Virus record (IMG/VR): IMGVR_UViG_3300020469_000046
Location: 1-63,900 of that record
Reading direction: 5' to 3' (one strand)
Origin: a virus
DNA: 63,900 nt
The notes below the pieces were generated by a model. That model saw only the letters and a program-made list of their open reading frames with translations, had not been told where the DNA came from and did no database searches. Positions 1,348 to 33,458 of this stretch are shown here, one piece after another; the first letter of the stretch is position 1, and each line of letters begins with the position of its first letter. The translations under genes and the position numbers were made by a program.

Positions 1348-1417
1348 AGGATGCTGTGGTGCTGGATGTCCAGACTGTCCATTCAGACCACCTCCTAGAC
1401 CGTCCACCTCTGTTTGA
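1334..1417 (+). CDS. Cys-rich micro-protein (CC-G-x-G-CP-x-CP motif)
   Basis: A 27-residue frame starting with GTG inside the end of the previous gene. It contains CCGAGCPDCPF, four Cys in CCx3Cx2C spacing, then a proline-rich tail. The motif resembles the short CCGxGCxxCPY segment of DUF5522 and of the N-terminal region of oxidoreductase-like proteins (PF09791), which suggests a metal or redox role. A strong terminator overlaps the stop codon. The GTG start is uncertain and the small size limits confidence. Confidence 0.45.
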   Translation: MITNRGCCGAGCPDCPFRPPPRPSTSV

Positions 1418-1432
1418 CAGGGGTGTTTTTTT
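1405..1432 (+). terminator. intrinsic terminator
   Basis: Stem CACCTCTG/CAGGGGTG (8 pairs, one G-T), loop TTTGA, then seven T. The loop contains the stop codon of the Cys-rich micro-ORF. Confidence 0.8.
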
Positions 1433-1451: not shown

Positions 1452-1481
1452 TTGACAATCAACTCATCCATCATCTATACT
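1452..1481 (+). promoter_or_regulatory. sigma-70-like promoter of the nuclease/Mom-like operon
   Basis: Consensus TTGACA (1452-1457), 18 bases, TATACT (1476-1481). It lies 32 bases before the start at 1513 and directly after a terminator, so the nuclease/Mom-like pair appears to form its own early unit. Confidence 0.7.
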
Positions 1482-1512
1482 GCGAACAGCAATTTTATCA
1501 ATCACCCAAACC

Positions 1513-2055
1513 ATGACTGCTCTTGATTATGTCATCTCTAGAATTAATGAGTATGACATGAGCAAATTTAAGTATAATACTTTTCTAACACTAGATGAAA
1601 ATCGTGGTGCCTTTTTGTGGAGTAGAATTGCACAGTTCATTGGAGATTATGTTGAGGCAGCAATTCCTGAGTGGGATCCAGACCCAGAAGCATTGCATCT
1701 TGGTGTTGGTAAAAGGGTTGATTGGGAAAATTCCAAAATAGTTGTAGAACAAAAGAGAAATCCTAAAGGTGATAATTCAGCATCTAGAAAATCAAATCTT
1801 ATCAAATTAAAAGAATCTGCTTTGGAAAAAAATAAAATTCCAATTTATGCATATTGGGAAGATCGGGAAAAGAACGACTATATTAAAGATGATGTTCTTC
1901 ATCTGCATGGCAAAGCAATTTTTAAACATCTTGGTATAGAAGATGACTGGACAGACTTTCTTTCTCATGTGGATGATGTTAAGATGACTATCAAACAAGG
2001 ACTTACTAAAAAATTTAATGAGCATTATGAATCCTTTAGCACAACTTCTTCATGA
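1513..2055 (+). CDS. putative restriction endonuclease (PD-(D/E)xK)
   Basis: A 180-residue protein. The segment GKRVD(70)W...VVE(79)QK(81) has the D-x8-E-x-K spacing of the PD-(D/E)xK nuclease core. It is followed by GDNSASRK, which resembles the N-x-x-S/A-x-(R/K)K stretch after the catalytic Lys in Eco47II-type enzymes. The length fits a small type II endonuclease. The gene has its own consensus promoter and overlaps a Mom-like DNA-modification gene by 38 bases, a neighbour that favours a restriction function. Alternatives are a recombination nuclease or an inactive relative. The nuclease fold is fairly well supported by motif; the subfamily is inference. Confidence 0.5.
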   Translation: MTALDYVISRINEYDMSKFKYNTFLTLDENRGAFLWSRIAQFIGDYVEAAIPEWDPDPEALHLGVGKRVDWENSKIVVEQKRNPKGDNSASRKSNLIKLKESALEKNKIPIYAYWEDREKNDYIKDDVLHLHGKAIFKHLGIEDDWTDFLSHVDDVKMTIKQGLTKKFNEHYESFSTTSS

Positions 2056-2674
2056 AGATATTGATTGTAGAGATGCAAATGTAAAGGATTTTGTAGTCAA
2101 ACCAACTACTATTCAGTACGTAAGAGAATTTGTGGAGACATGGCATTATTCATCTAATGTTAATGGTCTCCGTATTTCTAATGTGTTTGGGTTATTTCAT
2201 AATGAAAAACTCATTGGTGCCATGATTTATGGTCCACTTGGAATGGCAAATACTTGGAAAAAGTATGCTAGTTCTGAGAATGAAATTGTAGAGTTACGTC
2301 GTCTATGTTGTATAGACAACACTCCAAAATGTACGGAAAGTTATTTTATTGGTAAAACATTAAGATGGTTAAAAAAGAATACTGACTATAAAATTGTAAT
2401 TTCTTATGCTGATACTTTTCATAACCATGAAGGGACTATTTACAAAGCATCAAATTTTCAACATTGTGGACTAACTGCAAAGGGTAGAGTAATCCAGTAT
2501 GGTGATAGGACTTATCATGATAAATGTATTCGTACATATCATGTAGATAAGAATGGTAATAAAAAATTAAAACCCTTTGCTCAGAGGGTCAAAGATGCTT
2601 TAGAAAATGGAGATGCAGAATATGTAGAAACTCCAGGAAAACACATTTATGTGTATAAATTAAAGAAAAAATAA
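2018..2674 (+). CDS. Mom-like DNA adenine modification protein (GNAT fold)
   Basis: A 218-residue protein; internal ATG at 2027 is a possible alternative start. Key features are an N-terminal WHYS segment, VELRRLCC at about 90-97, and SYADTFHNHEGTIYKASNF at about 130-148. The last matches the SYAD-x-x-H-x-x-G-T-I-Y-x-A-x-N pattern of phage Mu Mom and its relatives, which modify adenine N6 and make DNA resistant to many restriction enzymes. Its start lies inside the putative nuclease gene, so the two are translationally coupled. A second member of the family lies at 32859. Family membership is well supported; the chemistry in this phage is inferred. Confidence 0.7.
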   Translation: MSIMNPLAQLLHEDIDCRDANVKDFVVKPTTIQYVREFVETWHYSSNVNGLRISNVFGLFHNEKLIGAMIYGPLGMANTWKKYASSENEIVELRRLCCIDNTPKCTESYFIGKTLRWLKKNTDYKIVISYADTFHNHEGTIYKASNFQHCGLTAKGRVIQYGDRTYHDKCIRTYHVDKNGNKKLKPFAQRVKDALENGDAEYVETPGKHIYVYKLKKK

Positions 2675-3532: not shown

Positions 3533-3756
3533 TTAGAAAAGTTCGGGAATTTCTTCAAAGAGATAGTGATATCACGTATAAGATTGAACTTGATTATATC
3601 AAAATAACAATCGTTGAACTTATACATATTATGAAGTTAAATTTAAAAAATGCTATTGTATCCAACAGAAAAGGACTACTTATTTCATTTAGTGACAACT
3701 TCTCCACAAGAGGCAAAAAATCTCTGGAGAAAATCAATAAAAACGAAATGGGGTGA
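3529..3756 (+). CDS. possible small ORF between talC and HNH gene
   Basis: A 75-residue frame starting at an ATGA overlap with the talC stop. The first 40 residues have a plausible charged/hydrophobic pattern, but the last third runs inside the HNH gene in another frame, with a 107-base overlap. It may be real with an unusual overlap, or a chance frame. Nothing else codes between 3533 and 3649. Confidence 0.3.
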   Translation: MIRKVREFLQRDSDITYKIELDYIKITIVELIHIMKLNLKNAIVSNRKGLLISFSDNFSTRGKKSLEKINKNEMG

Positions 3757-4018
3757 ATGTGCTTACTGCGGATCAAAAGAAAATTTAACAATCGACCATA
3801 TAGTTCCCCGATCAAAAGGTGGAAATAACCATATAACTAATGTTCTATGTGCTTGTGAAAAATGTAATAAATCAAAAGCACATTATGAATGGGAAGATTG
3901 GTATTTTCAACAGGAATTTTTTGAATATACTCGTCATAAGAAAATTAACTCTTGGATGACTCAATTATCTGAGAGTGAGCTCAAACCCTATAAACCTCGA
4001 AAAAATTTAAAGTACTAA
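3650..4018 (+). CDS. HNH endonuclease
   Basis: A 122-residue protein. The HNH core spans about residues 39-75: CAYCG, then LTIDHIVPRSKGG with the catalytic His, then N-x-x-x-x-C-x-x-C, giving two CxxC zinc pairs. Such proteins in phages are often homing or packaging-type nucleases. It sits between talC and the glutaredoxins. A related HNH protein on the other strand at 60444 shares the DH-x-x-PRSKGG core, so the phage carries two. The biological target is unknown. Confidence 0.75.
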   Translation: MLLYPTEKDYLFHLVTTSPQEAKNLWRKSIKTKWGECAYCGSKENLTIDHIVPRSKGGNNHITNVLCACEKCNKSKAHYEWEDWYFQQEFFEYTRHKKINSWMTQLSESELKPYKPRKNLKY

Positions 4019-32858: not shown

Positions 32859-33458
32859 ATGAAGAGTGATTTTTATATAGATAAAGTCTATAAGGAAGAT
32901 GTGAAGGGTCTTCTTTATACTCATCATTACTTAAAAGATGAATCAAAAGACTTTAAATCTGGATATAACTATGGACTTTTCAGGCATACTGATTGGGAAT
33001 GCCCTCTTAGAATTGGCGGGTGTATTGGTGTTTGTATTTTTACTGGTCTCCCAGTTCCAGAAATTGCCGTAGGTGCATTTGGATTAGAAAGAGATCAACA
33101 AGAAGGTTTATTTGAACTTTCTCGTCTCTGTATTGATCCTAAAACACAGGAAGAAGAATATAATATTACATCATGGTTTGTAAGTAAGTGTATCAAGCAA
33201 TTCAGAAAAGACGTTAACGTTCGAGCTATCCTTAGTTATGCTGATAGTTCTCGTCATAGTGGAACTATATACCGTGCTTGTAATTTTAATTATTACGGGT
33301 TAACAGAACCAAAGAAAGATTTCTATTACTTAGATGGAACAAAGCATTCTAGAGGGTCTGTAAAAGGATTAGAAGGTGAGTGGAGAGAAAGATCTCGTAA
33401 ACATCGGTATTTAATGGTATTCGATAAAAGGTTAAATATTTTATGGAAACAAAGTTAA
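32859..33458 (+). CDS. second Mom-like DNA modification protein (GNAT fold)
   Basis: A 199-residue protein. HHYLKD near 22-27, FELSRLCIDP near 88-97, and ILSYADSSRHSGTIYRACNF near 120-140 with YYGLTEPKKDFYYLDGTKHSRG after it match the Mom family (SYAD-x-x-H-x-G-T-I-Y-R-A-x-N). It shares this core with the protein at 2018 but is otherwise divergent. It ends a sigma-70-driven island of small genes; no nuclease is visible here. It may modify another base or act on a different target. Confidence 0.65.
   Translation: MKSDFYIDKVYKEDVKGLLYTHHYLKDESKDFKSGYNYGLFRHTDWECPLRIGGCIGVCIFTGLPVPEIAVGAFGLERDQQEGLFELSRLCIDPKTQEEEYNITSWFVSKCIKQFRKDVNVRAILSYADSSRHSGTIYRACNFNYYGLTEPKKDFYYLDGTKHSRGSVKGLEGEWRERSRKHRYLMVFDKRLNILWKQS

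Follow-up and report, generated by a model that had tools for sequence, protein, structure and literature searches.

A predicted restriction endonuclease-like protein overlapping Mom in T4-like cyanophages, and the exchange of the nuclease beside a conserved Mom gene

Phage T4 has hydroxymethylcytosine DNA and encodes endonucleases II and IV, such that its own DNA is modified and the unmodified DNA of the host is cut. In phage Mu, mom is expressed under late control, acts by itself against restriction, and is not known to be paired with a nuclease, a difference from the locus described here. The arrangement nearest to this locus is that of the jumbo phages, where Mom domains are typically fused to nucleases of restriction endonuclease (REase) fold. 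In the mechanism predicted for them, Mom protects the phage DNA and the nuclease attacks host or superinfecting DNA (Viruses 2021, 13:63, PMC7824862). Because these fusions are reported there, the concept of a link between Mom and a nuclease is already known, and the statement in an earlier, sequence-only reading of our locus that no nuclease is linked to the known Mom proteins was wrong. Two PHROG endonuclease profiles of the homing/HNH kind (phrog_3339 and phrog_559) also speak against it, since their C-terminal part matches Mom, suggesting the existence of HNH-Mom fusions.

The locus lies in a 63.9-kb virus record, analysed over its whole length (hereafter, the window). Its transaldolase matches mainly those of Synechococcus and Prochlorococcus phages and it encodes a T4-type baseplate hub/lysozyme, which makes a distant T4-like cyanophage the sensible reading of the gene content. 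Two genes on the plus strand, previously delimited from the letters alone and recovered here with the same limits, share 38 bp in two frames (2018 to 2055). The first (1513 to 2055, 180 aa, family nuc1) encodes a predicted PD-(D/E)xK restriction endonuclease-like protein, with the codons of its putative catalytic motif D70-x8-E79-x-K81 at 1720 to 1755. The second (2018 to 2674, 218 aa) encodes a predicted Mom-family, GNAT-like DNA adenine modification protein. Upstream, on the same strand, are a terminator-like hairpin (CACCTCTGTTTGACAGGGGTG, followed by T7; 1405 to 1425) with TTGACA across its loop, and a sigma-70-type promoter (TTGACA-18-TATACT, 1452 to 1481). We consider it likely that the two genes are a phage-borne restriction-modification-like unit.

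Compared by description with the jumbo-phage systems, the locus has Mom tied in the same way to a putative REase-fold nuclease and an identical proposed logic, but there the two are fused, whereas here they are overlapping genes on T4-like cyanophage contigs and the type of nuclease has been exchanged. With Mom of the Com/Mom system of phage Mu, the cyanophage protein shares the PF25680 family and the SYAD...GTIY motif. It resembles type II restriction-modification systems such as Eco47II (PF09553) and EcoO109I (PF14511) in having a nuclease gene beside a DNA-modifying gene and in distant profile similarity; however, the modifier of those systems is a methyltransferase, whereas the cyanophage unit has a GNAT-type Mom and its nuclease changes without the modifier. 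The likeness to T4 is in modifying self and cutting other, but the base, the chemistry, and the enzymes are different, and T4 swaps the base at the nucleotide level, whereas the cyanophage unit would modify it on the DNA. What is new here is thus the two-gene cyanophage form and the exchange of the nuclease only, the Mom-nuclease link itself being known from the jumbo-phage paper. We found neither of the two in the open-access papers searched, and the paper on Synechococcus phage DSL-LC03 does not discuss the pair.

The assignment of the second gene, already proposed from its motif, held in the profile searches: it matches PF25680 with an E-value of 1.3e-35 (123.4 bits for a cut-off of 27.1, covering positions 2 to 188 of 202 in the profile) and phrog_1384 with an E-value of 1.5e-59. 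By these matches its membership in the Mom family is beyond doubt. A second, divergent Mom gene is found in the structural-gene region of the window (32859 to 33458; PF25680 E-value 2.5e-21), so that two Mom enzymes are encoded in one phage. This gene has no paired nuclease, matches phrog_3339 and phrog_559, and has its nearest phage relative in Roseobacter phage CRP-212 (52% identity). Other partners were seen beside Mom elsewhere. In five loci (L055, L057, L058, L059, and L080) Mom genes are in tandem, with an overlap of about 26 bp, and a divergent Mom fills the slot of the nuclease. In three others (L063, L067, and L069) a gene for a radical-SAM-like protein lies directly 5' of Mom. In Geobacillus phage PK3.6 (L003, 2514 to 3023) the Mom gene shares 59 bp with a gene for an HNH endonuclease, perhaps an independent pairing of a nuclease with Mom, and in Microbacterium phage Bush (H129) a gene with a ParB-like nuclease domain overlaps or abuts that of a Mom-like acetyltransferase.

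The first gene is harder to assign. The window protein has the D70-x8-E79-x-K81 motif and the NSASRK stretch (residues 88 to 93) that had been pointed out, and the loss of the three motif residues among homologues, which would have spoken against a nuclease, was not seen: all are invariant in the 15 distinct nuc1 homologues aligned, as is E48 in the helix preceding the motif. Pairwise dN/dS values of 0.04 to 0.20, computed outside the overlap and saturated for the deeper pairs, indicate that nuc1 is kept under purifying selection. On its own, the window nuclease has no match in Pfam, PHROG, NCBIfam, or PADLOC, and tblastn retrieved nothing from 50,697 phage records or from plasmids. Profile searches of PDB sequences with the nuclease gave chance matches or none. 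The Pfam cut-off of PF09553 (Eco47II) was not reached, with no match for the window protein and one of the 15 homologues at an E-value of 0.27, and PF14511 (EcoO109I) did not match nuc1.

Structure prediction, proposed earlier as a check of the nuclease, gave a partial answer. An AlphaFold model made from the nuc1 alignment alone reached a pLDDT of 75, and its Foldseek comparison with PDB and BFVD was uninformative, with no matches of note. The model from the combined alignment of nuc1 and the related family nuc2 (see below) reached a pLDDT of 82 and a pTM of 0.72. It contains a helix (27 to 50), three strands (54 to 56, 63 to 65, and 76 to 81), a second helix (89 to 105), and a further strand (109 to 114), with E79-x-K81 in the strand 76 to 81. 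This order of elements fits the alpha-beta-beta-beta-alpha-beta core of PD-(D/E)xK proteins, so that such a core is plausible in the model. Foldseek found nothing in the PDB at E-values of 0.001 or below for the combined model. The top match, which is not significant, is DdmD (E-value 0.17, probability 0.69), which carries a PD-(D/E)xK nuclease domain, with McrBC and the Bax1 endonuclease ranked low; we regard this ranking as supportive only. Since the fold searches are not significant, the identity of the nuc1 protein as a nuclease is a strong inference only, drawn from its motif, its model, and the merged profile described below.

The second family, nuc2, is distantly related to nuc1 and EcoO109I-like. 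It occupies the slot of nuc1 upstream of Mom at 25 other loci, and one of its genes, in Synechococcus phage DSL-LC03, bears the annotation type II restriction endonuclease. Four of 12 members match PF14511 weakly (best E-value 2e-5), and the one for which a score was displayed reached 16.3 bits, below the 22.5-bit Pfam cut-off. Aligned as profiles, nuc1 and nuc2 gave an hhalign probability of 92% and a score of 47.6, which none of 40 shuffles reached (mean 13.5). The profile merging both families scored 25.6 against the Eco47II family (shuffled 13.3, sd 2.1) and 26.9 against the EcoO109I family (shuffled 14.6, sd 2.9), again with none of 40 shuffles as high in either case; the single-family profiles did not exceed all shuffles against Eco47II. 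The label "Eco47II-like" given to the window protein in the sequence-only reading is therefore not borne out by that protein, which has no Pfam match, and stands only through the merged profile. Because nuc1 and nuc2 align and their merged profile exceeds the shuffles, we place both in the PD-(D/E)xK superfamily, near the type II restriction enzymes and outside any named Pfam family. This similarity to ordinary type II enzymes argues against a modification-dependent, type IV-like nuclease that would cut the modified DNA of competing phages. Such phages exist, which is no direct support, and the enzyme would have to spare the Mom-modified genome of its own carrier, Mom being always adjacent; we regard this explanation as very improbable.

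The residues of the motif bear on another explanation, in which Mom alone acts, as an anti-restriction function, and is guided by the product of the upstream gene, a DNA-binding or targeting protein with a PD-(D/E)xK fold but without useful cutting. It would agree with the fact that most Mom genes examined in other phages stand alone, and with the motif of nuc2, an invariant D followed by Q-x-K (with the spacing D-x8-Q-x-K in most members), where Q replaces E. However, HinP1I is an example of an active restriction enzyme with a QxK variant, and a partner that does not cut would not require all the catalytic residues, yet nuc1 keeps D, E, and K without exception. We therefore give this explanation little credence.

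The survey of homologous loci called for earlier showed that the two genes stay together. Mom is directly downstream in all 27 nuc1 loci of IMG/VR, and the 15 distinct nuc1 sequences all end in the same 38-bp overlap with it. At one of them (L043) Mom probably starts slightly later, because the codon aligned with its start is ATA. Mom also follows nuc2 in 23 of 25 loci, the remaining two ending at a contig border. Since every nuc1 homologue lies directly upstream of Mom with an equal overlap, the arrangement is far beyond chance. At Mom loci without nuc1, the upstream ORF is often nuc2, which overlaps Mom by 38 to 44 bp. The reverse does not hold: many Mom genes have neither nuclease. Mom is thus alone in many phages, whereas nuc1 is never seen apart from it; such an asymmetry is to be expected if the nuclease is a toxic cutter and Mom its protector, and the adjacency of the nuclease to a modification gene without which it is not found is that of a restriction-modification system. 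The only match in the genome_contigs set (L108) is contig NZZM01000018.1 of a Formosa MAG, which has T4-like phage genes along with the nuc1-Mom pair. We rejected a bacterial origin because these genes identify the contig as phage DNA, probably mis-binned.

A free-standing PD-(D/E)xK homing endonuclease could in principle have settled beside Mom and spread by itself, with no functional tie to its neighbour. Phages carry many such enzymes, and an HNH gene is present in the window (3650 to 4018). One would then expect independence from any one neighbour gene, yet the neighbour is always Mom: nuc1 occurs with it in 27 of 27 loci, the 38-bp overlap into Mom is kept, and Mom stays with the nuclease in each of the several gene neighbourhoods where the unit is found. 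The profile link to type II restriction enzymes also points elsewhere. The gain and replacement of the nuclease at an orthologous locus, described below, would suit a homing endonuclease, but the slot is then taken by a different family with a nearly equal overlap. On balance, we find homing an unlikely explanation and retain that of a restriction-modification-like unit.

We inferred the phylogeny of Mom from 31 sequences, leaving out the overlap region. About six changes of nuclease type are needed on this tree, at least two of which are forced by strong branches, and a single origin, with each type in one clade, is rejected (p-AU 1.3e-7). Mom pairs that are 91% to 92% identical carry different nucleases, and nuc1 and nuc2 are only about 16% to 21% identical. 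In three comparisons (L014/L102, L026/L101, and L009/L102) the DNA is homologous on the 5' side of the nuclease and once more from where Mom begins, whereas the body of the nuclease is non-homologous. Further, three nuc2-Mom loci (L031, L035, and L036) have neighbouring genes, glutaredoxin among them, in common with the nuc1-Mom pair of the window. Given the near-identical Mom proteins, the orthologous flanks, and the non-homologous nuclease bodies, sequence comparison indicates that the nuclease was replaced while Mom and the flanks stayed. Such a replacement is hard to explain if the nuclease had no partner function.

Type II systems do not usually exchange the nuclease alone, since their nuclease and methyltransferase normally must recognise one shared site. 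One possibility, which we put forward tentatively and rate somewhat below even, is a decoupled restriction-modification unit, in which Mom marks adenines in a short, relaxed context and protects against many nucleases at once; the cutter could be exchanged alone, with the modifier unchanged, because of this broad protection. The main alternative to decoupling is a cleavage site common to the two nuclease families.

The near-consensus promoter and the flanking terminator noted earlier are both present. In isolation, the promoter, which scores 11 of 12, is not beyond chance, since 6 kb contains 29 sites of at least 9/12 for 25.4 expected. Among homologues, however, a match of at least 10/12 is kept within 90 bp 5' of the nuclease in all 16 distinct nuc1 loci, versus 2.2% of shuffled sequences, and for this reason we take the promoter to be real as a conserved feature. 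A consensus promoter is found in just five of 18 nuc2 loci, so an early promoter would not be general to the unit. About half of the nuc1 loci have a -35-like TTGAC in or across the loop of the terminator hairpin; such hairpins were seen in the window (1405 to 1425) and in L005, L010, L012, L014, L023, L025, and L046. In several homologues the T-run of the hairpin forms the spacer of the promoter, making a combined terminator-promoter.

The interpretation offered in the sequence-only reading, a restriction-modification-like unit, is favoured by the adjacency, the invariant D, E, and K, the purifying selection, and the replacement in the slot by another family. We infer the nuclease activity, the momylation of phage DNA, the protection, the early timing, and the target, as follows. 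The first gene would encode the restriction-type endonuclease and the second a Mom that modifies N6 of adenine in DNA. Both would be made together from the sigma-70 promoter by the host RNA polymerase, and probably early because of this type of promoter. The virion DNA would enter protected, since it would carry the Mom modification from the preceding cycle. The nuclease would then cut unmodified DNA, either the cyanobacterial chromosome, as a source of nucleotides and as a means of shut-off, or that of an incoming rival phage, and Mom would keep the replicated phage DNA protected.

If this is true, both families would represent new enzymes. A direct assay of how Mom inhibits them would be feasible, and they would provide a readout for the Mom modification, which is poorly understood beyond phage Mu. 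T4-like cyanophages would gain a counterpart of the strategy by which T4 modifies self and cuts other. The exchange of the nuclease further suggests that, behind a general DNA shield, a phage is free to change its cutter, which is hard for standard restriction-modification pairs.
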